From positions 2,570,101 through 2,634,100 of the forward strand of contig NC_088651.1 of NCBI RefSeq assembly GCF_964019385.1: a stretch of DNA of 64,000 nt, in the 5' to 3' direction. Positions 14,159 to 57,613 of this stretch are shown here, piece after piece (the stretch's first letter is position 1; every line of letters starts with the position of its first letter). Below the pieces are notes generated by a model. That model worked only from the letters and a program-made list of their open reading frames with translations. It did not search any database and was not told the DNA's origin. The position numbers and the translations under genes were made by a program. This DNA is from Sycon ciliatum. Taxonomy: Eukaryota > Porifera > Calcarea > Leucosolenida > Sycettidae.

Positions 14159-14267
14159 CAAGTTCCTGTCGTGGAATTATCTATTTGAGTATTTGGAATG
14201 TCTACTCATTAGCTTAGTGTTGAAATGTGTTTCTGCAAACTTGAAAATCACCATATCTGATGAAATC

Positions 14268-16085
14268 ACGATGTGAAGGCGATTGCAGACACACTGAACA
14301 AGCAGTTTGTTTCATCCGGCATTCCGGAAGATCCGAATTGGGTCATTCCATCGCTGTCCCCAGCCCCTGAACTTAGCGCACCACTCACACGCGTCGTTAC
14401 CACGACTGCTACCGTCTGTAAGCACCTCAAACTCCTGAAGAATTGTAAGTCCCCTGGCGAAGATGGCATACCCAATGAGGTTCTCAAATGGCTTGCGCCA
14501 TCTCTGTCCTATCCCTTGTGCCTGCTCTTTAACATGTCATATCGTACAGGAGTATTTCCGTCCGTCTGGAAATCTGCTGTTATCGTCCCGATCTATAAGA
14601 AAGGCCAACGCTCTCAGGCTGGCAACTACAGACCAATCTCTCTCCTTCCCGCTGTGTCCAAGGTCTGTGAACGTATTTTCTTTGAGTCTCTGTACTGCCA
14701 CGTCACCCCAGCGCTTTCACCATCTCAATCCGGTTTCTGCCGTGGAGACTCCACAACTTTCCAACTAACACGTCTAGTACAAGACATCTACACCCAGCGG
14801 AACCTCAGGCGGCATGTTGGCATCGTGTTCTTTGACCTAGCGAAAGCTTTCGACACCGTCTGGCATCGTGGTCTGCTTGCAAAGCTAGAGTCCGTCTTCT
14901 TGGTACACGGTCCAGCCCTGCAATGGCTCTCATCCTATCTTTCCTGCCGCCACCAGACTGTCAGAGTATCTACCTCCCTATCAGACCCATTACTAGTCGT
15001 GTCTGGGGTACCCCAGGGGTCCATACTTGGGCCGCTCCTATTTCTACTGTACGTTAATGACTTGCCAGCCCTTGTACCAAATGTAAGTCTTTTTGCTGAC
15101 GACACTGCTCTGATGTGCTCCGACAGCTCGGCAGACAACCTCACGGCCTCCATGCAGTCCGGGGTCAACGCTACAGTAACATGGATGGAAACCTGGAAAC
15201 TGAAGCCTAACCTCGCCAAAACCGAGGCCATGTTCTTCTCTCCCTCGCCCCCCACTCAACTTCTGTATTTTCCTGGTCTAAATAGTACACCTATTAAAGT
15301 TGTTAACGAGCACAAGCACCTGGGCGTTATTCTCGACCGCCAACTCTCCTGGTCTCCACAAGTCCAGTCTGTGTGCAAGCGTGCGAGTGCGTCCTTAGGT
15401 ATGCTACAACCCCACTGCCAACACTTGAATGATAACTGCAGAGAATTGTTCTTTAAGTCGTACATTTTGCCTATATTTGACTATTGCGATATAGCTTGGT
15501 GCGGGTTGTCTCAGACTTTACTCCACAGACTGGAGGTACATCAACGCTTGCTTCTGAAAATTCTGTTTCGAAAAGACCAAACATTTGCCTCCCTTTGTCT
15601 TTATAAACTTGCTTCCACGCACCCTCTTCTTGCCCGACATCAGCAGCATCTTTGTATCCTTGTGCAAAAAATCTTCCTAGCCCAAGTCCCGAAACATATT
15701 GCCAAGTACAACTGGTTTGTTACCACTAGACCAACACGCAATGCCTTATCACTGCCCCGAGCTAGTTCCTCTCTGTTTTTGAAATCCCCTTTCTTCTCAG
15801 CATACTCCCTTTGGCCTAACCTGCCTACTAGCATTAAGACATGCCAGGATATCAGGAAATTCACAGTCCAGCTTTCCACACTGTCTCATCCGAAGTGATC
15901 CCATGTATTATTAATGTGCCTCCCTTTCTTTTTCTCTCCCTATCTCCTTTCCCTCTCTGACAGCATCTTTCTTTTTTTTTCCCTTTTTAGCTTGCCGTGG
16001 TTGGCTATCACCTGACCTCTCATGTTTATTGGCAGTCTTCGGACGGGCCAGGAGATGTTGAATAAATAAAAATAAATAAAAAATC
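14268..16085 (+). mobile_element. LINE-1A: 5'-truncated non-LTR retrotransposon
   Basis: Inserted in unit B1. The empty site is visible at about 37,675 and 43,120 (GATGAAATCTCAGCC). The AAATC target duplication flanks it at 14,263-14,267 and 16,081-16,085. It begins inside the region before the RT palm, and ends with a short pyrimidine-rich 3' UTR and an AATAAATAAAAATAAATAAA tail. Its 3' UTR (GCCGTGGTTGGCTATCACC) resembles the tails at 22.6, 40.9, 46.4 and 57.6 kb. Confidence 0.9.
14273..15898 (+). CDS. Non-LTR reverse transcriptase, intact C-terminal portion
   Basis: Open frame of 541 codons encoding an RNA-dependent DNA polymerase of the Jockey/CR1/L2 type. Visible RT motifs: SPGEDGIPNEVLK (near 60-72), NYRPISLLP (118-126), FFDLAKAFD (motif A, 186-194), GVPQGSILGP (motif B, 245-254) and FADDTALM (motif C, 274-281). 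After these come the thumb and a C-terminal YSLWPNLPTSIK segment. The apurinic-type endonuclease that should precede it is missing, so this is a 5'-truncated copy. The codon at 14,273 is simply the first available start; the frame opens at the element edge. The uninterrupted frame suggests recent insertion. It would act on its own RNA at a nicked target, but this copy is probably unable to move alone. Confidence 0.9.
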   Translation: MKAIADTLNKQFVSSGIPEDPNWVIPSLSPAPELSAPLTRVVTTTATVCKHLKLLKNCKSPGEDGIPNEVLKWLAPSLSYPLCLLFNMSYRTGVFPSVWKSAVIVPIYKKGQRSQAGNYRPISLLPAVSKVCERIFFESLYCHVTPALSPSQSGFCRGDSTTFQLTRLVQDIYTQRNLRRHVGIVFFDLAKAFDTVWHRGLLAKLESVFLVHGPALQWLSSYLSCRHQTVRVSTSLSDPLLVVSGVPQGSILGPLLFLLYVNDLPALVPNVSLFADDTALMCSDSSADNLTASMQSGVNATVTWMETWKLKPNLAKTEAMFFSPSPPTQLLYFPGLNSTPIKVVNEHKHLGVILDRQLSWSPQVQSVCKRASASLGMLQPHCQHLNDNCRELFFKSYILPIFDYCDIAWCGLSQTLLHRLEVHQRLLLKILFRKDQTFASLCLYKLASTHPLLARHQQHLCILVQKIFLAQVPKHIAKYNWFVTTRPTRNALSLPRASSSLFLKSPFFSAYSLWPNLPTSIKTCQDIRKFTVQLSTLSHPK

Positions 16086-16722: not shown

Positions 16723-17612
16723 ATGTTCCTGTCGTGGAAATATCTATTTGAGTATTTGGAATGTCTGCCCGTAAGCCCCGTGCTGCAATATGTATTTGCA
16801 AAATTAAATATTCACAATCACTGATAACACAATCTCAGCCTAGTCACTGCCTTGAATCATGAGTGGACTCTCACCACCGGAAGTGGAGGACGCTCGATAG
16901 CTGCTTCGGTAGATATCGCAGTCGCCTTCGACAAGGTTTCACACATCGGGGCCACCTACAAGCTGCAGACACTCGGCATCCGTGGCAGAGCCCTGACCTG
17001 GCTGACAGATTATTTGTCCCTCAGGAAGCTACAGGCTGTTGTGAATGGCCAGAGTTCGTCCCCCTACCCTATACCCCCTACCCTGAGCTATCGCAGGTAA
17101 AACTCCTTAGCATCACATTTGACTCGGGCCTCTCCTTCAAGACCCACCTCCACAACACAGCACTCAAGGCGAATTCTCGCCTTCCTGCGCAAAGCTGCTC
17201 GCGTACTCGATGGTGCTGGTAAACAAACCGTCTACAGAGGTTTTGTGAAGCCAGTCCTAGAGTATGCGCTATTGGTATGGATGGGAGCAGCTTCAAGCCA
17301 TCTGCGCCTTCTCGATCGAGTGGAGAGACGCGCCCTCCACATTCTTGGCCCTGATGTCCTCCTCCAGAGTTTGGCAGCAAGGAGATTGGTCGCCGCCCTC
17401 ACCTATATGTATAAACTTATGTGTCCGGCAGGGCCACCGCAACTAACGTCAATGGTCACCCCACAGCTTCCTCCACCAACATATCCTCAAACTCGGTCCG
17501 ACCACTCGGTGCGCCACGAGTCTCAGCTACATAACGTCGACCCAGTGTCCTCTCCTGATTACGTGCGATGCTGCTTCCCCTACAGCATCATTGACGAGTG
17601 GAACAACTTGCC

Positions 17613-20339
17613 CCCCCCCCCCCAGCCATCCGCACGCGTCAGTACGACATCTTGGGTCTATCAGAGACATGGCTAGATCCCGAAATCACAGACGGAGAGC
17701 TCAGTATTGACGGGTACAATCTGATTCGAAAAGACCGCACTCAACGCTTGGGTGGCGGAGTCTGCTTCTACTACCGTCAAGATCTCCCAGTTCGATCCCG
17801 CCCAGATCTGCATTCTGAATCTACAGAAACAGTCTGGGTAGAAATAAACGGAAAACCAGGTCGGCACCTGGTTGGTTGCGTGTACCGGCCACCGGGGGAG
17901 CCAGTGTCTTACTGGGCAGATTTGGAAGCAGATATTGTACGAGCAGCTGTGCAGTCTTCTTCCGTGACCCTAGTTGGAGACTTTAATGTAAATATGGACC
18001 CAGCCCATCCGGCACCCCAGCACAAACACCTCACCGACCTCTGTGCTGCGTTTGGCCTCCAGAACATCGTCATGCAGCCGACCCGTGAAACTCCACAGTG
18101 CCCTGAAGGCACGATGATCGATCTCATATTGACCAACCCGGCGCTAGTGTCCCTAGCAACGGTTGTGCCCACTGATATTAGTGACCACAGCGCTGTGGAA
18201 GCCTTTATTCAGCTTGCCGTTGACGTTCCACCCGCGTCATCCACGACGTCGCGGCTGACCAGGAATATACGTGGTGTTGACATTAACTCTTTTCGGCAAG
18301 ATATCCTTGAGGCTTCTCTACATGATTTTTCGGATCACAATGATGTAAATCACATGTGGAAAGAGTGGCACACTAAGTTCCTGTACGTTTTGGACAAGCA
18401 TGCCCCGCTGCACAACTCTAAGCCTTCTCGGAGGGCGATACCTCCCTGGTCTGACAGAGAGCTGCACCAGCTCGAACAGCGTAAACGGCGGCTGCACAGT
18501 CGTTGGCGGAAGGATAGGACAAACGGCACACTGTATGCAGAGTTTAAACAAGCACGTAGCACTGCTCGGAACGCGTATCGGCGCAAGCGAAACGAGTACT
18601 TCTCCCGTCAGTGCGAAGAAAATGTGGCCAACCCTAGGAAGTCTTGGGCCATTCTAAATGCAGTCACTGGGCGTTCACGTCGCCGCCAAGATCCTAGTTG
18701 TAGCATCAGCGAGGTGGCCGACACGTTCCACTCCATTGTCACCGATCCCAACCGTCCTGAACAACTCTGTACCCCGCACGGTCCCGCTGGACTCGTCTCC
18801 TTAACCGAACTTGATCCTGTGACTCCTGCTGACGTCCGACGTCTCCTTGAGAAGTTGGATGCGCGGAAAGCCACAGGTAGTGACGGCATACCGGGCTCTC
18901 TGCTACAGCAGTGTGCTGACTTGCTTTCATATTCTCTTGCTGTGCTGTTCTGCACCTCGCTGAGGACTGGAACCATTCCATCCGCATTTAAATTGGCGTC
19001 TGTCGTGCCACTGTACAAGGCCGGTGACCCATCAGTCCCCACCAACTATAGACCTGTATCCCTTCTCCCAATAGTGTCCAAGTTGCTGGAGAGGGTAGTG
19101 CAACACCAGTTAGTTCGTCATTTGGACTTGACCCAGGCATTACCCGAAACACAATTTGCCTTCCGCAAGAAATGTTCCACGGAAGACGCCCTCTGTGTGC
19201 TGACTGATAATCTGCAGAAGGCGAGAGACAGTGGCAAGACCACAGGGCTGTGCCTATTAGACATGTCGAAGGCTTTTGATAAAGTGCAGCACGACAAGTT
19301 AATTCAAGACCTCCTTGCGGTTGGAATTTCTGGAAAAGCCCTTAGTTGGTTCGTCGACTACTTGTCCGGCCGCAAGCAGCAGATCCTCATCTCGCCTTCA
19401 ACCAGCCCTGCTCTGGCTTGCACCTGCGGAGTGCCCCAAGGCTCTGTTCTCGGCCCTGTCCTCTTCAGTATATACACACGCGATGTCCCTTTGGTTTCCT
19501 GGCCTGTGCCAAGTGTACAATTTGCAGATGACATAGCCCTGTACGACTCCCAGGCCTCAGCGGCGGAAGCGTCCAGAACCCTCACCACAGCGGCAACTGC
19601 TCTGGCCGGTTGGCTGAAGTCCCGAGGCCTCATCTTGAACGCCACCAAGAGCCAGGTTCTGACTATCTCTCCCCAGCAGCATGTACAGGAAGTAACAGTC
19701 AAAAGCGGCGACTGTCTCCTCCCCTCAGCGTCTTCTGCGCGCTACCTCGGCGTTCACCTTGACAATCGCCTAGATTGGGACACCCATGTAAACTATGTGG
19801 TCACCAAGGTTGCCAAGAAAATTGGCGCCTTGTGGCGGGCACGCCGAAGCCTATCAAGACGCTCTCGTCAGGTGTATGTGAAGGCGGTCATAATGCCCGA
19901 CCTGCTTTATGGCTCCTGCTGTTTCTCAGCCGCAATGCGAGAGGGTCAACTGAAACGACTGCAAACCACGCAAAACAGAGCCATCCGCTGTATAGATGGC
20001 AACCCGCCCCGGACAGCCATGCAGCCGCTGCTCACTGCTCACTCCCTGTACCGTGTCAGCGAGCTCTACAGGCAGAAAATATTGATCACCATCTGGCGGT
20101 GCATCCACGCCCGCACCAGCCCTGTGCTCGCCCAGCTTCTGACCCCAGCACAAGGCACCCCTACCCGCCATCAGCAGTCAAATGGCCTACTAAGCCAGGC
20201 AAACCGTAGCCGCCGCGGTCAGCGTAGATTTTCTGTTGCTGGTGCTCTGCTGTGGAACGCTCTCCCTGGTGAGGTCCGCACAATTACCCGGCTACCTGAG
20301 TTTAAGCATGCATGTGTACCATACGCCTGTAGGGAGTAG
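17613..20339 (+). CDS. Endonuclease-reverse transcriptase of a Jockey-superfamily LINE (N-terminally truncated)
   Basis: About 908 codons. An apurinic-type endonuclease (SETW, GGGV, YRPPG, GDFN and SDHS at roughly residues 22, 52, 96, 127 and 195 of the open frame) is followed by a basic linker and an RT: TNYRPVSLLPIVSK (482-495), LLDMSKAFD (motif A, 553-561), GVPQGSVLGP (motif B, 611-620) and FADDIALY (motif C, 642-649). It ends in a thumb and an LWNALP...FKHA C-terminal signature. The first methionine in frame (17,598) belongs to the host repeat, not the element. The endonuclease lacks its first strand and catalytic Asn/Glu region, so the enzyme is incomplete. No stop or frameshift interrupts the rest. 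The family is CR1/L2/Jockey-like; I cannot choose between these. Confidence 0.9.
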   Translation, partial: PPPPAIRTRQYDILGLSETWLDPEITDGELSIDGYNLIRKDRTQRLGGGVCFYYRQDLPVRSRPDLHSESTETVWVEINGKPGRHLVGCVYRPPGEPVSYWADLEADIVRAAVQSSSVTLVGDFNVNMDPAHPAPQHKHLTDLCAAFGLQNIVMQPTRETPQCPEGTMIDLILTNPALVSLATVVPTDISDHSAVEAFIQLAVDVPPASSTTSRLTRNIRGVDINSFRQDILEASLHDFSDHNDVNHMWKEWHTKFLYVLDKHAPLHNSKPSRRAIPPWSDRELHQLEQRKRRLHSRWRKDRTNGTLYAEFKQARSTARNAYRRKRNEYFSRQCEENVANPRKSWAILNAVTGRSRRRQDPSCSISEVADTFHSIVTDPNRPEQLCTPHGPAGLVSLTELDPVTPADVRRLLEKLDARKATGSDGIPGSLLQQCADLLSYSLAVLFCTSLRTGTIPSAFKLASVVPLYKAGDPSVPTNYRPVSLLPIVSKLLERVVQHQLVRHLDLTQALPETQFAFRKKCSTEDALCVLTDNLQKARDSGKTTGLCLLDMSKAFDKVQHDKLIQDLLAVGISGKALSWFVDYLSGRKQQILISPSTSPALACTCGVPQGSVLGPVLFSIYTRDVPLVSWPVPSVQFADDIALYDSQASAAEASRTLTTAATALAGWLKSRGLILNATKSQVLTISPQQHVQEVTVKSGDCLLPSASSARYLGVHLDNRLDWDTHVNYVVTKVAKKIGALWRARRSLSRRSRQVYVKAVIMPDLLYGSCCFSAAMREGQLKRLQTTQNRAIRCIDGNPPRTAMQPLLTAHSLYRVSELYRQKILITIWRCIHARTSPVLAQLLTPAQGTPTRHQQSNGLLSQANRSRRGQRRFSVAGALLWNALPGEVRTITRLPEFKHACVPYACRE

Positions 20340-23402: not shown

Positions 23403-24186
23403 AATGTTCCTGTCGTGGAAATTTCTATTATTTTGACTATTTGGAATGTCTACCCGTTAGCCCTGTGCTGCAATGTGTTTTTGCAAAATTGAAAAATCAC
23501 CATCACTGATGGAAATGTCAGCCTAGTCTGCGTCCTACCAGCCTGTTCGGATTCTACGAAGGGTGAGTTCGATGTCGGAAGAAATTGTTGAACGGTCACT
23601 GCTTGGACGACGACTACACCAAAGCTTAGTAGTAGAGCCTCGCTGGCCTTACGACTAAGTGAAGGTCCCTGGCTGGGGGTGCTGATGGTGATGGTCGATG
23701 GTCCTTCAAACGTTTCCTGTTAACATCATTCTGTCGTTTACTGCATAGTCATTATTGGCTCATTTATAGATGTACAATTGTCCAACTCTAGCATAACAGT
23801 TATCGAGTTCGACAATAGGGCTCAAACCTGACAGAAATATGGGTCAAAACTCGTTACATTACATTTTGGTTCTGCCTGGTTTTTATCCGTGATCACACTG
23901 GTTCAAAAACCTAGTTCACTTTGCCCCTATGATGAGCCGTCATCAGCTAGACGGCGAGACTGGTGGTCGTGAGAAACTGCATGTCATAGCGAGTGCAGAA
24001 TCCGTAGCGGGGAGCGTCCGTGGCGCATACAGAAATAGACGAGACGAATACTGAACCAGGGACAAGAAAAAGAAGACATTGAACACAAAAAAGCAAGAGG
24101 CATAAACTGTAGAAGATCGACTGCAATCAACTACAAGGATTAAAACGACATTAAGTGCGGAATATGGGATATGGACAAAAAATGGC

Positions 24187-24918
24187 AGACTTCTTACGAT
24201 CACAATCACCATCCGATTCCTCGTCTCCACCAACCGCAACCTCGTCCTCTGTCTCATCTTCCAACTCGTCCTCAGTGTCGTCCCCCGTGTCTATGACACG
24301 GGGGACGAGTTGGAAGATGAGACAGAGGACGAGGTTGCGGTTGGTGGAGACAAGGAATCGGATGGTGATTGTGATCGTAAGAAGTCTGCCGTTTTTCTTC
24401 ATCTGTTGTCTCGCCCTAAGTGTCTGCAGGTGTATGATGATTTTAGTTTTTCTGTTCTTTGTCGTGCACGGTACGCTAGTCAGTTGAAAGTACTTGAGGC
24501 TGTTTGTATTCGTTTGCATAAGCCTGATCTTTGTAAGCAGAAGAAACATGTAGTTGCGTTAAGATTGTTTTCGTAGGTGCACAGCATGATTGTTTGTCTC
24601 AATACACAGTTCTAGCGTTGTAATTAGTTCCTCACCCCTGTTGCACTTAGCTCTCACTTCACTTCTATTGTCTCACCTTCCCTCATTCTATTTTAGCACT
24701 TTGTTTTGTTCTCGTAACACATTATTGAATGTATATTAATCATTGATTCAGCATGGTTACTCTTCAGTCACGGCTTTCCACTGATGATTGTGACAAGAAA
24801 ATCGATTTTGGTAAACCTTCATGACTTTGTTGTAGTGTGGCGATGACAGCAGAATTTGTTCTCTTTATAGCTATTATAAAATTGTTGTCTCCACGTCGAT
24901 TATTTACGTATTCATAAT
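24187..24918 (+). mobile_element. Penelope-like element copy with a truncated inverted arm (PLE-1)
   Basis: A ~110-bp inverted left arm (24,187-24,292) and a full right arm (from 24,296) meet at CCCCCGTGTC/GACACGGGGG. The right arm encodes (24,301-24,576) an acidic stretch and then SVLCRARYASQLKVLEAVCI and KPDLCKQKKHVVALRLF. This matches the C-terminal part of GIY-YIG endonucleases of Penelope-like elements. No RT is present. A hammerhead motif lies downstream at 24,775. The right end (GTCTCCACGTCGATTATTTAC) equals that of the palindrome at 50.3-51.5 kb. Confidence 0.7.
24775..24815 (+). ncRNA. Hammerhead ribozyme motif, type 1
   Basis: Core CTGATGA (24,781-24,787), then stem II TTG-TGA-CAA, then GAA. 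A two-base stem III (AA/TT closing a TCGA loop) follows, and then T as the cleavage nucleotide (24,808). Stem I is formed by TTTCCA upstream and TGG(T)AAA downstream. Hammerheads with a very short stem III are known from Penelope-like elements, which fits the context. Activity not tested. Confidence 0.75.
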
Positions 24919-27654: not shown

Positions 27655-30066
27655 TCAACGGGACACCCTAGCCTCCACGACAGCCAGGGAGGCACAGCCA
27701 TCCATTGGAGGCTGCCAAACTCGGCGAGCCCCACGCAGACACATGACACTCGAACGCAGCAGGGCGAAAGACAGCCTGCAGCGGAGGTGGGCAATTAGCA
27801 CAGAATACGCCTCCCTCCCACGTAGCGACTGGAGATGTGCAATCCGGCTCACCAGTGCAGCGGCACCCTTGCCGCATCCTCCGGTGGAAGAGAGCACAAA
27901 GGGGAGAAAAGTGGATCGCTCCACTTCTCGGACTCTCCGATCATATCGACGCCGTTTCTCTTGCTCATGGTGCCGGTAGCAGCCAGAGAGAGAGGAGGTG
28001 CGGTTCGAAGACGCATAAGGGTTGAACACCCGTACATCAATAAAAGTGCGTTCGAACCGACCCCCCCAAACTCCACTGGCCACCACATCCAAACGAGCTT
28101 GATCCTCGGTTGATGCTGACCGGAGCTGAAACTGCTCCCCAGTCAGGGGTTGGAGATGTGGCTCCACTGCGACGTTGTGGGCGACACCCTTCAATGAGCT
28201 TGCCAGTATGTCGCGCACCTCGTTGTGGCGGATCGAGGGGAACCCACCGAAAGGACAGGACAAGGCGTGAGCAGTGGTGAATGCCTTCTCGCAAACACAG
28301 GTGGTGGGCAGGCGAGAAGGCGTCCAACCGTAACGGAGGCAGAGGCCATCCCGGAATTCCCCCTTCGACAAAGCGAAGCCATGGCGAGCGATGGGTCGGC
28401 AGGTAAGCCAGCTTGATGCTCCCTTCTCCTCTGCCAGACTGATAGCGAGATCGAGTTCGCTGTGTTCGGTGCGGAACGTATCGGCAGCTATCTTCATTGC
28501 CTTTCTGGCCTCAGAGCGAGCCTGACTCTTGGCCCTGCGGACACAGGCAAGAGCATCATCGAGGTGCTCTTCTTGCGCCATGATCTTGTCGTACAGTGCA
28601 GTGGTGATTAGCCTGGAGGTGCCGTACTGTGAGCCAAAAGTGGCAGGGTTGGCCACGCCGAGGCCTCCATGCCGGCAGGGGAAAGTGAGCAAAATGCGTT
28701 CAGCTTCACTGGGCGCCGTCCGTCCACTAATGGCAGGGATTAGGCGGCGGTGGATGATGTCCTCCAGGGGTGCCAGCTGTTCTGCAGCACCATCGAGAAC
28801 CCGACACAGGAAGGACCACCGGTGTTGGAGGCTGTTCACCAGTGCAGAGTAAGCTGCTTGAGGCTGTGACCGGGCGAAATCTGTCAGCTTGCACAGCTCC
28901 TGCGACCAGGTGGCCACCTTGGAAGCCACAAACTCCTGCACAAACTGATCAGTTCCGATGGCTGATCCAAGGTGACGGCACCCGTCAGTGGTGATAGACA
29001 CACCCGTGCCGGCGAAGATGGTCTCGGCTGCCTCTAGCTTGTCCCGCTTGACGACGAGGACGGATTTGCTGGGGTTAATGAAATACCCGAACGCCGGCCC
29101 ATCCCCGACGAGTCGGTCCCACCACTGGCGGAGAGGGTTGAGCCCGCCACCCGCGGACGAGTCATCCGCATACCAGCTCTGGCGTGTTCCTGGGGTTGCC
29201 ACTCTGCGCACCAGGGGGAGTACCCCCAAAGCGTACATCGGCATAGCAAGAGGGTCTCCCTGCGTTGTGCCTTCTCGCGATAGGAGGCACTCCCCGTCCA
29301 CGAATAGGCGGGCCGGCTGACGGTAGCAGTTTACGATAGCGGGTGTGATGGCTGGACAGAGGTGCGCTACGTTGCGCATACATGCTTCTCTGTTAAGGCG
29401 ATTGAACGCATTGGATGCATCCGCCATAAGCACAGCGTCAACGTCTTCTTCATGGAACGTGTCGTGCATGGCGTGAATGGCCGCCTCAATGCCACATTCC
29501 TGGCCTCCGCACATCTGCAGTGACCCTGTCGCCTCACGAACAGAGTCCCCCGCCACGCTCAGAATAGCCTTGCCGATGATACGAAGGACGGTTTCGCCGA
29601 TGCCTATTGGGCGCACACCCGGTTTCTTATCTAGAGGGATAAGCCGGCATGCCGTGTAGGCTTCCATCGATGCTGGGTTGACGTACTGAGTGGCGATTCG
29701 CCGGGCACAGCTGGCGAGAGCATCACATAGGTCGTCTGAAATGTCCCCAAACGCTGTGCACATACGCCTCCAGCCATCTTCGTCCATCCCAGACGGCCCT
29801 GCAGAACCGGTGGTATGCAGTGCAGCTTGGCGCACAGCGGTCCTGTCCAGCTTGGTGAAGAGCACTGGGTGGGGCTGTGCTGGGGGTTGCCCTGGGAGGA
29901 GAGCCGCTGCTGTGACTGCTTCGCCCTGTGGGTGCTTACTGCGCAGCACATCAAAGCACGGTCGTTTCTCCAATGGTGTCGTCAGGATCAAGAACTCCAC
30001 CACCCATGTCGGGGGAGAGTTGACGAGTGGCTGCCGAGAGCCTGCCACGCTCAATGTCAGACGCAA
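27655..30066 (-). CDS. Reverse transcriptase plus restriction-like endonuclease (RLE-type LINE)
   Basis: 803-codon frame. RT motifs: DKKPGVRPIGIGE (near 146-158), MADASNAFNR (motif A, ~214-223), GTTQGDPLAMPMYA (motif B, ~266-279) and WYADDSSAGG (motif C, ~298-307). A Cys/His motif (CVC...HALSC, ~590-604, then RHN) and a PD-(D/E)XK-like nuclease region (RLDVVAS...FIDVRVF, ~658-681, then HEQEK...YDRRVREVE) follow. This order is that of site-selective LINEs of the R2/NeSL/CRE/Hero group; I cannot pick the clade. Its true beginning is in the upstream frame: the first ~32 residues here are an out-of-frame shadow of the 29,951-30,905 ORF. A single-base shift near 29,960-29,980 separates the two parts. 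Confidence 0.8.
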   Translation of the reverse strand: MRLTLSVAGSRQPLVNSPPTWVVEFLILTTPLEKRPCFDVLRSKHPQGEAVTAAALLPGQPPAQPHPVLFTKLDRTAVRQAALHTTGSAGPSGMDEDGWRRMCTAFGDISDDLCDALASCARRIATQYVNPASMEAYTACRLIPLDKKPGVRPIGIGETVLRIIGKAILSVAGDSVREATGSLQMCGGQECGIEAAIHAMHDTFHEEDVDAVLMADASNAFNRLNREACMRNVAHLCPAITPAIVNCYRQPARLFVDGECLLSREGTTQGDPLAMPMYALGVLPLVRRVATPGTRQSWYADDSSAGGGLNPLRQWWDRLVGDGPAFGYFINPSKSVLVVKRDKLEAAETIFAGTGVSITTDGCRHLGSAIGTDQFVQEFVASKVATWSQELCKLTDFARSQPQAAYSALVNSLQHRWSFLCRVLDGAAEQLAPLEDIIHRRLIPAISGRTAPSEAERILLTFPCRHGGLGVANPATFGSQYGTSRLITTALYDKIMAQEEHLDDALACVRRAKSQARSEARKAMKIAADTFRTEHSELDLAISLAEEKGASSWLTCRPIARHGFALSKGEFRDGLCLRYGWTPSRLPTTCVCEKAFTTAHALSCPFGGFPSIRHNEVRDILASSLKGVAHNVAVEPHLQPLTGEQFQLRSASTEDQARLDVVASGVWGGRFERTFIDVRVFNPYASSNRTSSLSGCYRHHEQEKRRRYDRRVREVERSTFLPFVLSSTGGCGKGAAALVSRIAHLQSLRGREAYSVLIAHLRCRLSFALLRSSVMCLRGARRVWQPPMDGCASLAVVEARVSR

Positions 30067-30905
30067 ATCTGCGTGCCGGGTCGACCGTGTGTCCCTCGTG
30101 CCTTGCGTTTCGCCTGCGGGCCTTGACGATCTGGTCTTGGATAGTCACGGATTCTTGGAGTAGCACCTGTACGTCTCCGGAATCCCACGAGGCAATGCGG
30201 CGCTCGATGCAAACCTTGTGAGCTGCTGCCGCTACGGTCCCGCCAGGTTTCTGAAGGAGCAACTGCTGCATTACCATCGCCGTTTTCAGGGCGTAGTCAG
30301 CTGCACCTGAGGAGTTGTTACCAAAGGCGTGGAAGTGTGAACTCAGCATACGGATAAAGGTTCGGCCCGTGCTGCCCATTGGTACGTCCAACAGGTTTGG
30401 GGCAAAATGAACTACCTTCTCGTACGCCTCGGATATCCGGTTGGAAAACGTGGGACCGTCCAGATCTCCCATTCCGAGTGTGGGGTCCCGCAGGGGAGGA
30501 TGGGGTGGCAGGTCCGGGATAACAGGATCAGCGACGTCCATTGTTGCTTGGGACATGTTGAGTGTGGCTAGCAGTCGGACATCGTGTGGATCTACGTCCC
30601 CACTCGCTGGTAGGTCAACTAGGTCCACTACGGTCACGGTGGCACGCTCCGCGTCCGCTGGCTCAGGCGCTTGGCTGGCAGGTTCGACATCAGCACTGCC
30701 ATTGGTGTCAGGCGAGTTCGGCACCTGTACGGGTACTACAGTGCTACTGCTAGTACTGGCACCGGGAGGCGAGCTCGACCGGGCTGTGCGAGGTGGTCCG
30801 TGACGACCGTCTCTGCACTCTGCAAGTAGGGTGGTGGTGAGTACTGCGGCTGCACTCTCAGTATATTGTGGACAGCTGTTTTGTACAATCCTGTAGAGCC
30901 TTTGT
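29951..30905 (-). CDS. N-terminal part of the RLE-LINE protein
   Basis: Open frame upstream of the RT frame, overlapping it by 116 bp. It is Pro/Ala/Asp-rich at the start, then has a helical region (FSNRISEAYEKVVHFAPNLL) and a basic segment before the frameshift. No ATG opens it: the frame is free of stops back to about 30,905, so it starts at a non-ATG codon, upstream of a lost start, or is 5'-truncated. In related elements this region and the RT form one polypeptide, so a single-base indel is the simplest explanation; programmed frameshifting is possible. No nucleic-acid-binding zinc finger is visible. Confidence 0.6.
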
Positions 30906-31565: not shown

Positions 31566-31566
31566 T

Positions 31567-32020
31567 TATAACGAGTGTTATTTGTCGCGCGCGTTTCTTT
31601 AAGCAGTTGCAGGTGTTGGAAGCTGTATATATTCGCACACGTGACCCTGTTCTATGCAAGCAAAAAGAAAAATGTTGTAGCACTCACACTTTTTAAATAA
31701 TACGCACTCACCAGTTTTTGTTCACACGCACTCACAGCTGCCACATTCATCTACTGCTACCATTCTCAGATACACTGCAAAGGTTCACACTACACGCGTT
31801 ATGCATAACCGCTAGCTGTGCTGCATTCTCACGCTTCTTTTCATATTACTCTAGCTATATAACTGGTTGTTTTAGTGATTCTTACTATGTGACGATGTTC
31901 CACTGATGATGGTCACACGAAAACGTTCTGGAATTGTTTCATTTTAATTGTTTATACATGGTGATGAGTGCACAATTGATATTTTTCATTGCTAATAATA
32001 ATAATAATAATAATAATAAA
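31567..32020 (+). mobile_element. Penelope-like element 3' fragment (PLE-2, copy 1)
   Basis: Starts SVICRARFFKQLQVLEAVYI and continues PVLCKQKE; an extra A near 31,665 breaks the frame in this copy only. The other copies continue to NVVALTLFK and a stop. It is the GIY-YIG C-terminal segment of a Penelope-like element. It is followed by ~200 bp, a hammerhead motif and (TAA)n. Confidence 0.7.
31898..31933 (+). ncRNA. Hammerhead ribozyme motif, type 2
   Basis: TTCCA, CTGATGA (31,903-31,909), a weak stem II in TGGTCACAC, GAA, then AACGTT as a minimal stem III, C as cleavage nucleotide (31,928) and TGGAA pairing perfectly with TTCCA (stem I). Stem II has only about two base pairs by my reading. 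Confidence 0.7.
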
Positions 32021-33835: not shown

Positions 33836-34227
33836 ATTCAAAGGTTCAGTCGGGGAAGTGAACTGCCTGAAAAGGGAAAAAAACGCCAGACCCACCAGGA
33901 CTCGAACCTGGGACCCTGCTTGTGACGAGCAATGCTCTAACCACTGAGCTATGGGACCAGGCTGAACCTAGAAGGCGTTGACAAGTTTTTCATTCCAAAG
34001 GCAGCTCACAACACGTGCCTCACATTGAATTTGAAGTTCTCACAATCCTTTCCAAATTTAATCAATTTCTTTCACCTTTGGTAGTTTCCAGAAACTGACC
34101 GCGGTTGGTCCCCTGGGGGGAGGGAAAAAGACCCAAGTGCCATCAGTATGTGTGGCACGTGTTGTGAGCTGCCTTAGGAGTAAAACACCTGTCAGCGCCT
34201 TCTAGGTTCAGCCTGGTCCCATAGCTC
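33796..34227. mobile_element. Foldback element with tRNA(Thr)-like arm
   Basis: Starts with an (ATT)n run, then CAAAGGTTCAGTCGGGGAAG and a minus-strand tRNA(Thr)-like sequence, an internal spacer, and the inverted arm (GGCACGTGTTGTGAGCTGCC to GGTCCCATAGCTC). The right arm is truncated within its tRNA-like part at 34,227. The complete form is at 56.74-57.25 kb. Confidence 0.7.
33888..33958 (-). repeat. tRNA(Thr)-like SINE head
   Basis: Cloverleaf-compatible: GGTCCCA acceptor, U8-A9, GCTCAGTGGTTAGAGC D arm, a 5-bp anticodon stem (TTGCT/AGCAG) and CCAGGTTCGAGTCCTGG T arm, followed by TTTTTTT. The D arm and acceptor resemble animal tRNA-Thr. Position 33 is G, not U, so it is not a working tRNA. 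Confidence 0.75.
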
Positions 34228-48286: not shown

Positions 48287-48900
48287 GCAGACACTCGGCA
48301 TCCGTGGCAGAGCCCTGACCTGGCTGACAGATTATTTGTCCCTCAGGAAGCTACAAGCTATTGTGAATGGCCAGAGTTCGTCCCCCTACCCTATAAAGTC
48401 GGGAGTACCCCAGGGGAGCATGCTGGGGCTAATTCTGTTCCTCATCTATGTAAACGATTATAACGAGTGTTATTTGTCGCGCGCGTTTCTTTAAGCAGTT
48501 GCAGGTGTTGGAAGCTGTATATATTCGCACACGTGACCCTGTTCTATGCAAGCAAAAAGAAAATGTTGTAGCACTCACACTTTTTAAATAATACGCACTC
48601 ACCAGTTTTTGTTCACACGCACTCACAGCTGCCACATTCATCTACTGCTACCATTCTCAGATACACTGCAAAGGTTCACACTACACGCGTTATGCATAAC
48701 CGCTAGCTGTGCTGCATTCTCACGCTTCTTTTCATATTACTCTAGCTATATAACTGGTTGTTTTAGTGATTCTTACTATGTGACGATGTTCCACTGATGA
48801 TGGTCACACGAAAACGTTCTGGAATTGTTTCATTTTAATTGTTTATACATGGTGATGAGTATTGATATTTTTCATTGCTAATAATAATAATAATAATAAA
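48287..48900 (+). pseudogene. RT/Penelope-like chimera (RTps copy 8 plus PLE-2 copy 2)
   Basis: RT fragment to about 48,463, then SVICRARFFKQLQVLEAVYI, PVLCKQKENVVALTLFK and stop, in one frame. The AAT tail ends near 48,898. Confidence 0.75.
48789..48824 (+). ncRNA. Hammerhead ribozyme motif, type 2
   Basis: Identical to 31,898-31,933; predicted cleavage after 48,819. Confidence 0.7.
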
Positions 48901-49444: not shown

Positions 49445-50352
49445 ATGTTCCTGTCGTGGAAATATCTATTTGAGTATTTGGAATGTCTATTCGTTAGCCC
49501 CGTGCTGCAATATGTATTTGCAAAATTGAAAAATCACCATCACTGATGAAAATGTCAGCCCAGTCTGCGTCCTTCCAGCCTCTTCGAATTCCCACGAAGC
49601 GTGGCTTCGATGTGGGAAGAAAATTTTGCACGGTCACTGCTTGGACGGCGACCACACCATAGCTTAGTAGTACTAGTGGGGCATCGCTGGCCTTACGACT
49701 AAGCGAAGGTCCCTGGTTGAGGTGCTGACGGTGATAGTCAATGGTCCTTCAAACGTTTCCTGTTAACATCATTCCGTCGTTTACTGCATAGTCATTATTG
49801 GCTCATTTATTGATGTGCAATTGTCTAACCCTAGCATAACAGTTATCGAGTTCGACAATAGGGCAATGCACACACTCTCGCAAAACCGAACATAGTACAC
49901 CCGATACCCATGTAGTCTTGCATACAGCCTAGTGGAGGAAATAGTCTGAACTACTGTCTTTAGCCGGTAAGTAGAGAAAAGCAATAATTTCGCGCTTGCA
50001 GGGGCCATCAGTTCCGGTCAGAGTAACATAAATGCTTGATGTACATGCACACAGTACACTGTACATAGAATACTTAGAGTATTTCGCGAAACAGTATTCG
50101 CTCGTTTCAAAATTTCCAGCGAGCGCTCGAGTATTCGATATACTCGTTTCACCCCTAGCCTAAACTGTAAAAGATCGACTACAGTCAACTACAAGGAAAG
50201 ATCAAAACGACATTAAGTGTGGAGTATGGGATATGGACACAAAAGACAAAAACACACGAGCTAGAGGTGATACTGTACTGTATTCATAATATAATAGCTA
50301 TAAAGAGAACAAATTCTGCTGTCATCGCCACACTACAACAAAGTCATGAAGG

Positions 50353-50393
50353 TTTACCAAAATCGATTTTCTTGTCACAATCATCAGTGGAAA
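50353..50393 (-). ncRNA. Hammerhead ribozyme motif, type 1 (left arm)
   Basis: Minus-strand copy with intact CTGATGA core (50,381-50,387) and GAA, identical in layout to 24,775-24,815. Confidence 0.75.
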
Positions 50394-50591
50394 GCCGTGA
50401 CTGAAGAGTAACCATGCTGAATCAATGATTAATATACATTCAATAATGTGTTACGAGAACAAAACAAAGTGCTAAAATAGAATGAGGGAAGGTGAGACAA
50501 TAGAAGTGAAGTGAGAGCTAAGTGCAACAGGGGTGAGGAACTAATTACAACGCTAGAACTGTGTATTGAGACAAACAATCATGCTGTGCAC

Positions 50592-50880
50592 CTACGAAAA
50601 CAATCTTAACGCAACTACATGTTTCTTCTGCTTACAAAGATCAGGCTTATGCAAACGAATACAAACAGCCTCAAGTACTTTCAACTGACTAGCGTACCGT
50701 GCACGACAAAGAACAGAAAAACTAAAATCATCATACACCTGCAGACACTTAGGGCGAGACAACAGATGAAGAAAAACGGCAGACTTCTTACGATCACAAT
50801 CACCATCCGATTCCTCGTCTCCACCAACCGCAACCTCGTCCTCTGTCTCATCTTCCAACTCGTCCTCAGTGTCGTCCCCC
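50592..50880 (-). CDS. Penelope-like GIY-YIG C-terminal fragment (left arm)
   Basis: Acidic run (DTEDELEDETEDEVAVGGDE) then KKSAVFLHLLSRPKCLQVYD, SVLCRARYASQLKVLEAVCI and KPDLCKQKKHVVALRLF to the stop. The conserved LEA-x2-IR-x3-P-x-LC-x-QK pattern is that of the last part of GIY-YIG nucleases in Penelope-like elements. The catalytic GIY and YIG strands are absent, so it is not an active nuclease. The start lies in or beyond the palindrome centre. Confidence 0.65.
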
Positions 50881-50891
50881 GTGTCATTCAC

Positions 50892-51180
50892 GGGGGACGA
50901 CACTGAGGACGAGTTGGAAGATGAGACAGAGGACGAGGTTGCGGTTGGTGGAGACGAGGAATCGGATGGTAATTGTGATCGTAAGAAGTCTGCCGTTTTT
51001 CTTCATCTGTTGTCTCGCCCTAAGTGTCTGCAGGTGTATGATGATTTTAGTTTTTCTGTTCTTTGTCGTGCACGGTACGCTAGTCAGTTGAAAGTACTTG
51101 AGGCTGTTTGTATTCGTTTGCATAAGCCTGATCTTTGTAAGCAGAAGAAACATGTAGTTGCGTTAAGATTGTTTTCGTAG
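50892..51180 (+). CDS. Penelope-like GIY-YIG C-terminal fragment (right arm)
   Basis: Mirror copy of the left-arm ORF, differing by about one residue (DGNCDRKK for DGDCDRKK). The high identity between the arms suggests recent formation or gene conversion. Confidence 0.65.
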
Positions 51181-51378
51181 GTGCACAGCATGATTGTTTG
51201 TCTCAATACACAGTTCTAGCGTTGTAATTAGTTCCTCACCCCTGTTGCACTTAGCTCTCACTTCACTTCTATTGTCTCACCTTCCCTCATTCTATTTTAG
51301 CACTTTGTTTTGTTCTCGTAACACATTATTGACTGTATATTAATCATTGATTCAGCATGGTTACTCTTCAGTCACGGC

Positions 51379-51420
51379 TTTCCACGGATGATTGTGACAA
51401 GAAAATCGATTTTGGTAAAC
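51379..51420 (+). ncRNA. Hammerhead motif with core mutation (right arm)
   Basis: The core reads CGGATGA instead of CTGATGA. The changed U4 is an invariant catalytic position, so this arm's ribozyme is probably inactive while the left arm's is intact. Confidence 0.65.
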
Positions 51421-51583
51421 CTTCATGACTTTGTTGTAGTGTGGCGATGACAGCAGAATTTGTTCTCTTTATAGCTATTATAAAATTGTTGTCTCCACGT
51501 CGATTATTTACGTATTCATAATAATAAACTTTTTTTGCTAGGAAAACAAATTCATTCCAAAAAATCTCTTTACTGAAAAATCA

Positions 51584-51776: not shown

Positions 51777-52400
51777 CCGCAGACACTCGCCATACGTGGC
51801 AGAGCCCTGACCTGGCTGACAGATTATTTGTCCCTCAGGAAGCTACAAGCTGTTGTGAATGGCCAGAGTTCGTCCCCCTACCCTATAAAGTCGGGAGTAC
51901 CCCAGGGGAGCATGCTGGGGCTAACTCTGTTCCACATCTATGTAAACGATTATAACGAGTGTTATTTGTCGCGCGCGTTTCTTTAAGCAGTTGCAGGTGT
52001 TGGAAGCTGCATATATTCGCACACGTGACCCTGTTCTATGCAAGCAAAAAGAAAATGTTGTAGCACTCACACTTTTTAAATAATACGCACTCACCAGTTT
52101 TTGTTCACACGCACTCACAGCTGCCACATTCATCTACTGCTACCATTCTCAGATACACTGCAAAGGTTCACACTACACGCGTTATGCATAACCGCTAGCT
52201 GTGCTGCATTCTCACGCTTCTTTTCATATTACTCTAGCTAGATAACTGGTTGTTTTAGTGATTCTTACTATGTGACGATGTTCCACTGATGATGGTCACA
52301 CGAAAACGTTCTGGAATTGTTTCATTTTAATTGTTTATACATGGTGATGAGTGCACAATTGATATTTTTCATTGCTAATAATAATAATAATAATAATAAA
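51777..52400 (+). pseudogene. RT/Penelope-like chimera (RTps copy 9 plus PLE-2 copy 3)
   Basis: Same junction as 31.56 and 48.46 kb; the PLE part is open to its stop near 52,083. Confidence 0.75.
52281..52316 (+). ncRNA. Hammerhead ribozyme motif, type 2
   Basis: Identical to 31,898-31,933; predicted cleavage after 52,311. Confidence 0.7.
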
Positions 52401-54785: not shown

Positions 54786-55215
54786 ATGTTCCTGTCGTGG
54801 AAATATCTATTTGAGTATTTGGAAATTCTACTCATTAGCTCAGTGCTGTATTTTGTTGGCAAACTGGAAAAAATCACCATCACTGATGGAAATGTCAGCC
54901 TAGTCTGTTCTACCAGCCTCTTCGGATTCCCACGAAAAGGAATAGAGCCTCGCTGGCCTAACGACTAAGCGAGAGTCCCTGGTTGGTGTGCTGTTGGCGA
55001 TAGTCAATTGCCCTTTATTAGTATTATTATTATTATTATTATTATTTAAATAGGCGTCGAGGCGACAATAGTTTTAGAATTGCGATCAACAGAACGAGCT
55101 GAACCGACATTTTCACAAAGGCTTTTATTGTATTCAAAAAACGAGTGTATACGAAGGCAGTGAAGAACATGGAAGAAAGAAAAAATGTGATGTGGAAGAA
55201 ATGATGAACAAAAAT

Positions 55216-55259
55216 TGTACTTCGAACTAGTTTTCGCACAACACTCCTCAGGAAGCTAC
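55216..55259 (-). ncRNA. Hammerhead ribozyme motif, type 3
   Basis: On the minus strand: GTAGCTTC, CTGAGGA (core, N7 = G allowed), stem II GTG-TTG-TGC, GAA, stem III AACTAGTT, C as cleavage nucleotide, then GAAGTAC. Stem I pairs CTTC/GAAG and, with one bulged G, GTA/TAC. Confidence 0.75.
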
Positions 55260-55471
55260 GTTGTACTAATGAAAAACAATCCAGAAAGATACTAATAAAG
55301 AGAAATGGAGTGAGAAGAAACAACACCTATGAAAATGATAATCCTAGCACTAAGGTAATAACAGGAAAAACTGCGAAAGCACTTAACGAACTTGTAAGGA
55401 CTACTAGTATACTGTGACACAAGATATGACACCATGGCCAACCAGAGCCAAACCGACAGAACAAGTTGCTA

Positions 55472-56160
55472 CTAAAACAATTTCAAACGAATAATGCCGT
55501 CCTTCTGGACACACAGATTAGGCTTATGAATACGTTGACAAACGGCTTCTAACACACTCAACTGCAACTTATAACCATGACGAGCACGGCACAAAACAGA
55601 AAAAGAAGAATCAGAATAAACCTTACAACAATCAGGACGAGATGCAAGATGCTTATACACTGATGACTTCCTACTAGAAAACACACGCTCGCACCCACTC
55701 TTACTCACACAATCATTCTCGCTCTCACACTCACCGGAATCACTGGACTCACTGGCCGAATCCTCCTCAACGACTTCCTGCCTCGGAGCAATCAGGTCCC
55801 GTCTCCTCCCATCAGTCGTCTCACGTTCCTGTTGTGTATTGCGTTGGTTCGGTACTTCCGTACTGAAATAGGTCATGGTGTAATTAGCAGTTGTTCTTCT
55901 GGGTCTCGTTGATATTGAGGTAGGTATTGTTGTCGTCTCTGCCGGTGATGCAGCAAGCGATGCTGATGCAAACGTGTCTGCATGCAACACACGTGGCGTC
56001 GCCAAAGCCACATCCACCTCCGCTGGTGGAGGGAGTGACTTGGTCATGGCCACGGGAGCCAATGGTGGACTTGTCGAGTGAGACGCTAGGTCCTGTGTTG
56101 GCGGAGGTAGTGGTTGTTTACGGGGTCTTCCCCGCGTGGGACGCTCCAGTTGTGCGCTAC
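55472..56160 (-). CDS. Penelope-like protein: AT-hook-like segment plus GIY-YIG C-terminus
   Basis: Reading minus strand from about 56,160: RGRPRKQ (AT-hook-like), a long Pro/Ser/Thr-rich disordered region, an acidic Ser/Glu-rich run, then SSVYKHLASRPDCCKVYSDS, SVLCRARHGYKLQLSVLEAV and NLCVQKDGIIRLKLF to the stop. The last ~65 residues match the other two PLE families here, diverged. The open frame extends upstream to 56,380, but that part only translates the inverted end, an AAT repeat and a TTTGG repeat, so I exclude it. No RT and no GIY/YIG catalytic strands. Confidence 0.6.
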
Positions 56161-56311
56161 GTGGCCTTCGTATACACTCGTTTTTTGAATACAATAAAAG
56201 CCTTTGTGAAAATGTCGGTTCAGCTCGTTCTGTTGATCGCAATTCTAAAATTATTATTATTATTATTATTATTATTACGAAGTAGTGGTTGCGACTTCGG
56301 CGATGATTTGT

Positions 56312-56352
56312 AAGAAAGGGTTTGGTTTGGTTTGGTTTGGTTTGGTTTGGTC
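56312..56352. repeat. (TTTGG)n microsatellite
   Basis: About seven TTTGG units, beside the right edge of PLE-3. Confidence 0.9.
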
Positions 56353-56359
56353 TCACCGT

Positions 56360-56700
56360 CCAGGAGCGACACTGACTCACCTTGCTATCTGGTGTTCACG
56401 AGGTGTTTGTCGCGCTGGAAATGGAGCGTCTCTGTAAGTTTGTATCCCTGGTGATGTTTGTGCCTGGAGAGCACTATATAAGTGGTGCTCTTCAGGCACA
56501 ATCTTCCTCAGCCTACTCAAGCTCAACTGATGAGGGGTGAATTCCCCGAAACACTGTGTATTGAGCAGGGAGTGGTGCTTTCTTGCAGGTTTGCCGAGTC
56601 GAAGGTTCGATGGACTTCTCGTGTGCTCTGGATGGCAGTCGTGAGTCAGTCAAGTGTCAAGTAAAGTCGGCGGAATAGCGCGAGCTCCGGTGTGGGGAGC
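56360..56700. other. No gene seen
   Basis: Short ORFs only. It contains AGTGGTGCTCTTCAGGCACA-type sequence without a recognisable domain. Confidence 0.35.
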
Positions 56701-56786
56701 AAACCCTTTATTATTATTATTATTATGATTAATATTCAAAGGTTCAGTCGGGGAAGTGAACTGCCTGAAAAGGGAAAAAAAACGCC

Positions 56787-56857
56787 AGACCCACCAGGAC
56801 TCGAACCTGGGACCCTGCTTGTGACGAGCAATGCTCTAACCACTGAGCTATGGGACC
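56787..56857 (-). repeat. tRNA(Thr)-like SINE head
   Basis: Identical in sequence to 33,888-33,958, again with a non-U at position 33. Confidence 0.75.
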
Positions 56858-57131: not shown

Positions 57132-57201
57132 GGTCCCATAACTCAGTGGTTAGAGCATTGCGCATGACAAGCGGGTTCCAGGTTCGAGTCCTTGTGGGTC
57201 T
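57132..57201 (+). repeat. tRNA(Thr)-like SINE head
   Basis: Diverged (CATGACA anticodon loop with A at 33, and a T-stem mismatch), followed by TTTTTTT. Confidence 0.7.
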
Positions 57202-57204
57202 GGC

Positions 57205-57613
57205 GTTTTTTTCTCTTTTCAGGCAGTTCACTTCCCCGATTGATCCTTTGAATTTGAAGTTCTCCCAATCCTTTCCAAATTATTATTATTATTATTTATG
57301 GAAGGATTGGGAGAACTTCAAATTCAGAGGAACAGTAGGGGAAGTGAACTGCCTGAAAAGAGATAAAATCGCCAGACCCACCAGGACTCGAACCCGTGAC
57401 CTTGCTTGTCATGAGCAATGCTCTAACCACTGAGCTATGGTACCGGGCTGAACCTAGAAGGCGCTGACAAGATTTTCACTCGGGGGAGGGAGAAAGACCC
57501 AAGTGCCATCAGTATGTGTGGCACGTGTTGTGAGCTGCCTTTGGAGTGAAAACCTTGTCAGCGCCTTCTAGATTCAGCCCGGTCCCATAGCTCAGTGGTT
57601 AGAGCATTGCTCA
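57205..57613. mobile_element. Second, inverted foldback unit around an AAT repeat
   Basis: GAAGTTCTCCCAATCCTTTC and its inverted copy surround (ATT)n at 57,278-57,297, so the plus tRNA-like at 57,132 faces a minus one at 57,374-57,444. A further truncated plus arm starts GGTCCCATAGCTCAGTGG at 57,581 and is cut at 57,613. Confidence 0.65.
57374..57444 (-). repeat. tRNA(Thr)-like SINE head
   Basis: GGTACCA start; anticodon stem TTGCT/AGCAA perfect; loop CATGACA lacks U33. Confidence 0.7.

Follow-up and report, generated by a model that had tools for sequence, protein, structure and literature searches.

An integration scar shared by hammerhead-bearing Penelope-like elements and a small protein-free element in Sycon ciliatum

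Hammerhead ribozyme motifs of the types T1 to T4 occur within insertions in a 64-kb stretch of Sycon ciliatum DNA, the whole of which is called the window here. The hammerheads are of a known kind; the new part is the integration scar that their carriers share, in which two arms lie head to head, one outer 3′ end running to a tail stop and the other finishing at a no-tail stop further upstream. The same architecture, the same two stops, target duplications and variants common to both arms recur in insertions elsewhere in the genome. On balance we consider it probable that T1, T2 and T3 are young families of Penelope-like elements (PLEs) with 3′ minimal type I hammerheads, and that T4 is a non-autonomous, retrozyme-like element moved in trans by PLE machinery.

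Hammerheads and insertions in the window

The window is rich in repeats. All seven hammerhead sites listed in the initial annotation, under three sequence types, are present in its sequence, and a further motif (T4) that was absent from that list lies at 56,521-56,566. The features, numbered by position in the window, are as follows.

24,106-24,576 (+): open frame ending in the T1 GIY-YIG C-terminal motif
24,178-24,907 (+): T1 insertion A, whole insertion, tail end at 24,907
24,776-24,813 (+): T1 hammerhead, predicted cut after 24,808
31,898-31,933 (+): T2 degenerate hammerhead, stem II not closed, within the T2 PLE 3′ remnant at 31,566-31,994
48,789-48,824 (+): T2 degenerate hammerhead, second copy, same insertion duplicated
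50,290-50,865 (−): left arm of T1 insertion B, with the no-tail stop as its outer end
50,392-50,355 (−): T1 hammerhead in the left arm of insertion B
50,907-51,511 (+): right arm of T1 insertion B, with the tail stop as its outer end
51,380-51,417 (+): T1 hammerhead in the right arm of insertion B, mutated core CGGATGA for CTGATGA
52,281-52,316 (+): T2 degenerate hammerhead, third copy, same insertion duplicated
55,047-56,163 (−): T3 left arm with GIY-YIG end and hammerhead, outer end at the tail stop, into (TAA)n
55,256-55,219 (−): T3 hammerhead in the T3 left arm
56,164-56,255 (+): T3 right stub, with the no-tail stop (about 56,250) as its outer end, into (TTA)n
56,276-56,324 (−): T4 left stub, with the tail stop as its outer end and a hairpin CGAAGT-loop-ACTTCG
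56,346-56,713 (+): T4 right arm, comprising part of a 479-bp unit, with the no-tail stop as its outer end, into (ATT)n
56,472-56,482 (+): TATA-like box (putative role), preceding the T4 hammerhead by about 40-50 nt
56,521-56,566 (+): T4 hammerhead, stems I, II and III of 6, 4 and 4 bp

The seven listed sites are not independent copies and reduce to four insertions. The T1 sites at 50,392 (−) and 51,380 (+) belong to one event, since they occupy the two arms of a single head-to-head insertion (50,290-50,865 / 50,907-51,511), and type 2 is one insertion triplicated, as its three copies match over 600 nt, shared flanks included, at 97.7-98.7%. T1 insertion A consists of a short inverted fragment (24,178-24,271, −), with its outer end off the standard stops, and a plus arm that begins near 24,303 and reaches the tail end. 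Insertion B, T3 and T4 each have one tail and one no-tail end, while insertion A is without two standard ends and T2 is one-armed. A TATA-like box similar to that of T4 precedes T2 at 31,853-31,866.

Weak Rfam matches to microRNAs at 24,241-24,333 and 50,841-50,932, below the gathering score, were rejected as palindromes at the T1 head-to-head junctions. The window also contains an RVT_1 frame (14,264-15,898), an RVT_1 plus endonuclease (17,595-20,339) and a weak RVT_1 match (27,655-30,144, −). Four tRNA-like matches (33,887-33,958, 56,786-56,857, 57,132-57,202 and 57,373-57,444) lie inside dispersed-repeat copies and are possibly tRNA-derived SINEs.

Hammerhead structure and the Penelope-like families

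The CUGANGA...GAA core with H17, attributed to every listed site, is found in T1 (two of its three sites), T2, T3 and T4, and is lost at 51,380. Stem II had likewise been ascribed to all sites, wrongly for three of the seven (all type 2), where TGG/CAC gives two mismatches adjoining the core and then one pair. T1, T3 (with wobbles) and T4 have three paired stems. Judged from their sequence, both type 1 and type 3 are minimal type I hammerheads in intact form, situated next to PLE GIY-YIG ends, and the best-formed hammerhead is the T4 motif, located in a separate, protein-free element.

A strict scan, requiring the exact core, paired stems I, II and III and an H17 other than G, returned four motifs in the window, whereas 300 dinucleotide shuffles gave 0.023 on average and never more than 1. 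These were T1 at two sites, T3 at one and T4 at one, making three independent motifs because two are copies of one family (T1); neither type 2 nor the mutated type 1 passed. Across the six families compared, including T6 and T7 from elsewhere in the genome, stem III is paired in every case (6/6). Stem I is paired in T2, T4 and T7, contains a wobble in T3 and one mismatch among five in T1 and T6, and stem II pairs in T1, in T4 and, with wobbles, in T3, and is mismatched in T2, T6 and T7. The stems vary in sequence yet mostly stay paired, a pattern that lends the predicted structures support from family comparison, short of a formal covariation test. The optimal monomer fold predicted by RNAfold is hammerhead-like for T4 only, the T1, T2 and T3 stretches folding otherwise and no better than shuffles.

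Rfam models matched none of the window's sites, at the gathering score or at E≤10. The RF00163 model gave at least 21 matches elsewhere in the 538-Mb genome, four of them above the cut-off, with 74 of 76,236 candidates scored. Eight of these 21 matches (L001-L008) form a family, T5, with canonical type I hammerheads and, in L002, 226-bp tandem units. T5 copies end about 6-15 nt past the cut at the 8 loci, unlike T4, and no opposite arm was found within 3 kb at any of them. Loci L128 and L129 represent T6 and T7, whose hammerhead-bearing ends have tails, TATA-like boxes and an imperfect stem II.

Minimal type I hammerheads have reportedly been described from PLEs. The Sycon motifs resemble them in the core, the very short self-complementary stem III, the position at a PLE end and the weak monomer fold, whereas T2 and T6 depart from them in a mismatched stem II, although their copies look young.

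The earlier placement of PLE-type hammerheads beside GIY-YIG ends was right for T1, T2 and T3, each with a GIY-YIG C-terminal motif just upstream (read by eye as DPVLCKQK in T2). The T1 copy L072 carries a 956-aa open frame with matches to RVT_1 (E 1.3e-5) and GIY-YIG (E 0.0024), both below the Pfam curated cut-offs, and with reverse transcriptase motifs that we take to be of PLE type. Through L072, T1 combines a PLE-type reverse transcriptase and GIY-YIG in one frame, with both matches under the Pfam cut-offs; the assignment of T2 and T3 to PLEs rests on the C-terminal GIY-YIG motif. Pfam gave no match for the short GIY-YIG remnants inside the window.

A first look at the genome yielded 1,785 candidates for T1, 1,364 for T3, 1,093 for T2, 799 for T6 and 467 for T4, and the best 40 of each family were 98-100% identical in T1-T4 and 94-100% in T6; as only the best 40 per family were scored, these counts are rough and the identities selected. 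The best 40 of the 1,093 T2 candidates are 99-100% identical, so that T2 looks recent, though it is without a proper stem II.

Paired insertions with one tail and one no-tail end

Insertions of these families are head-to-head inverted pairs, the minus arm on the left and the plus arm on the right. In each pair one outer 3′ end lies at the upstream (no-tail) stop and the other at the tail stop, about 21-37 nt further on. Where both ends of a two-ended insertion lie at standard stops, this one-each rule holds in 58/58 cases (T1 15/15, T2 10/10, T3 10/10, T4 16/16 and T6 7/7). The two stops are separated by about 25-29 nt in T1-T3, by about 35 nt in T4 and by about 21 nt in T6. By eye, T1, T2 and T3 have similar tails (TTGTCTCC.CGTCG..TATTTA and variants), to which the T4 tail shows no clear similarity.

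The counts are defined as follows. For T1, L009, L017 and L032 were left out (one end off the standard stops), as were L015, L019, L021, L026, L027, L034/L071, L036, L037 and L070, with one arm in the stretch examined, and three more pairs recorded by coordinates only. Two of the 12 T2 coordinate pairs were omitted, and so were two of 12 for T3, the latter being neighbours on C2 that resemble duplicates of a counted pair. T4 has 24 distinct insertions, from which L041, L052 and L065 (non-standard or nested), L043, L053, L055 and L056 (single arm) and L068 (mixed) were set aside; 11 of the 16 rule-following T4 insertions also pass an exact-letter rule, and the left arm of L054 is a 13-nt stub read by eye. 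The seven T6 insertions were judged by coordinates and two were read as sequence; two tail-to-tail neighbour pairs and one complex place were left out. Another 13 T4 no-tail ends, listed with no partner, added four pairs; these 13 extra stretches comprise the four T4/T4 pairs, one mixed insertion (L106), three single arms (L098, L103 and L104) and five uncounted.

Three candidate observations were discarded. L016, initially taken as a T1 pair, has ends that face each other and represents two neighbouring insertions, and is out of all counts. The derivation of the L010 and L016 T1 arms from two template RNAs was dropped, the two variants not being linked. A bias in strand, with the T4 tail favouring (TAA)n, was also dropped, the search pattern being blind to the other form, which is present in L066.

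Target duplications were scored as the longest string common to both end regions, so that repeats of 7-8 bp may be due to chance. Among the ten T2 pairs, direct repeats of 12-14 bp flank six, two lie in tandem-repeat sites and two have weak repeats of 7-8 bp. Two-armed T4 insertions gave 13 bp at L064, 13 bp at L062/63 and a weak 7 bp at L060, and the single-armed L056 has a 13 bp duplication. In the clear cases one target duplication surrounds the whole pair, and the pair is therefore one event. T2 sites are AT-rich and mostly not microsatellites, whereas the insertions of T3 and most of those of T4 lie within microsatellites of ATT type, which makes their target duplications hard to read. 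Of the 39 T4 end calls, which include a few internal miscalls, 27 fall in such microsatellites, compared with 1.15% of random 30-mers from the window.

Two insertions join arms of different families, and both keep the one-each rule. In L068 the T4 no-tail arm measures 1,092 nt and meets, head to head, a T3 piece of about 60 nt that extends to the T3 tail, all in one (AAT)n tract; in L106 a T4 no-tail arm is followed by about 27 nt of T4 in the opposite direction and then about 125 nt of T6 to the T6 tail, within one (TAA)n tract. Each could also have arisen by deletion between neighbouring insertions in one microsatellite, given that insertions pile up in the same tracts (T3/T4 in the window; L030, L074, L128 and L131). 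No further T3/T4 head-to-head neighbour was present among the first 100 listed T3 tail ends and T4 no-tail ends.

The T4 element and its probable mode of copying

The T4 unit is 479 nt long (53.4% GC), is tandemly repeated and holds a TATA-like box, the hammerhead and two PLE-type stops. It contains no PLE-type reverse transcriptase/GIY-YIG frame, its longest open run being 90 aa (in a trimer); T4 behaves like a PLE end and is not classed as a PLE. Exact end patterns occur genome-wide at least 360 times for T4 tail ends followed by TAA-type letters, at least 161 times for T4 no-tail ends and at least 249 times for T3 tails, all lower bounds since mutated ends and some end forms are missed, and reversed control patterns gave 0 each. 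T4 arms range from short stubs to 1,930 nt. Of the long arms, 18/32 exceed one unit and hence pass the predicted ribozyme cut site at least once, running through it for up to about four units; a statement that all T4 arms cross the cut would be biased, as the search query spanned it. In one T4 array (L066, 929-1849) a unit is without exactly the 37 nt between the two stops.

The available portions of Cervera and de la Peña (2020; PMC7229834) describe metazoan retrozymes as protein-free tandem units of about 150-450 bp, with GC <50% and a type I hammerhead. T4 resembles these non-LTR retrozymes in its protein-free tandem units, type I hammerhead and target duplications of >4 bp, but differs in unit length (479 bp), GC content (53%) and its short, PLE-like hammerhead; head-to-head arms with two fixed 3′ stops do not appear in those portions of the text. 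The accessible text on rotifer Penelope reports inverted pseudo-LTRs, one of which bears a 31-bp tail (Arkhipova et al., 2013; PMC3846280). A purified lizard PLE cuts both strands at 5′-ATT-3′ and initiates from two internal sites on the RNA, explaining the tail (Frangieh et al., 2024; PMC11167929). As far as these sources extend, the Sycon insertions are like known PLEs in their head-to-head pairs, tail length, ATT or AT-rich target and hammerhead upstream of the reverse transcription starts (PMC3846280, PMC11167929). What goes beyond these accounts is the one-each rule, counted over five families including a protein-free element, together with the two mixed insertions.

The shared scar and the two mixed insertions suggest that a PLE enzyme also moves T4; most likely T4 is a retrozyme-like element with a circular RNA that PLE machinery copies. 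The enzyme, probably acting as a dimer, would make a staggered double-strand cut in AT-rich DNA, each DNA 3′ end would prime copying from one of two RNA start sites, and the two cDNAs would meet head to head. The two fixed stops resemble the two internal reverse-transcription starts known for PLEs, which account for the tail. If so, the starts lie about 65 nt downstream of the predicted ribozyme cut in T2, 70 and 99 nt in T1, 152 and 177 nt in T3, and 149-153 and 184-188 nt in T4, so that a cut, still linear RNA could provide only a short arm. Long arms would need a template that is uncut, or cut and ligated into a circle.

A T4 RNA circle would be the simplest source of identical tandem units. 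Private variants recur across the units of one insertion, for which a circle seems the best explanation, and both arms share variants in 8/8 pairs (permutation mean 3.1/8, P 0.0003 for the total). Identical units would also be obtained from the transcript of an identical-unit array, and gene conversion between arms could make them alike. We put forward tentatively, as plausible rather than probable, the complete scheme of two-ended copying by a PLE (one dimer, two starts and one cDNA per side of the break), rolling in trans round ribozyme-made T4 circles and sometimes joining arms of mixed families. Several observations count against the main reading of T4: its tail is not clearly similar to those of T1-T3, T2 has young-looking copies without a proper stem II, T5, a canonical-hammerhead family in the same genome, shows no scar at the 8 loci inspected, and the lizard PLE did not need its ribozyme for insertion in vitro (PMC11167929). 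In that in vitro work the DNA strands did not differ in the start site used (PMC11167929).

Arms alike in their private variants (T4 8/8; T1 4/11 true pairs) would also result if one cDNA folded back and copied itself, and fold-back self-priming has been proposed for rotifer Penelope elements in the available part of that study (PMC3846280). However, self-priming alone does not give each arm a different standard 3′ stop, as in the 58/58 insertions, nor arms of two families, as in L068 and L106, and we regard it as an unlikely origin of the inverted pairs.

Less probable still is that T4 is moved by a LINE or by a different PLE branch and acquired its PLE-like ends by convergence. LINE-type elements do occur in the same window, the T4 tail is without sequence similarity to those of T1-T3 and no helper PLE was found for T4, but T4 and the PLEs have in common the head-to-head architecture with its one-tail/one-no-tail rule, AT-rich or ATT targets, and the order of hammerhead and then two stops. 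That the arrays are ordinary satellite DNA produced by unequal crossing-over, with hammerheads as roleless relics, would fit the tandem 479-bp units and the continued spread of T2 without a proper stem II, but is very improbable in view of the dispersed copies, fixed 3′ stops, 5′ truncation, inverted arms and target duplications, which are marks of retrotransposition.

On the basis of shared ribozymes and co-occurrence, PLEs have been named as the likely agents of retrozyme movement, according to the available portions of two papers (PMC7229834, PMC7761336). Integration evidence for retrozymes moved by PLEs, or the one-each rule, was not found in the literature searched, a body of partly available texts with subscription papers mostly outside it. 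The shared scar turns the proposal that PLEs move retrozymes into something that can be checked in any genome. Furthermore, the one-each rule constrains the mode of PLE insertion and yields a prediction that can be measured with purified PLE protein.
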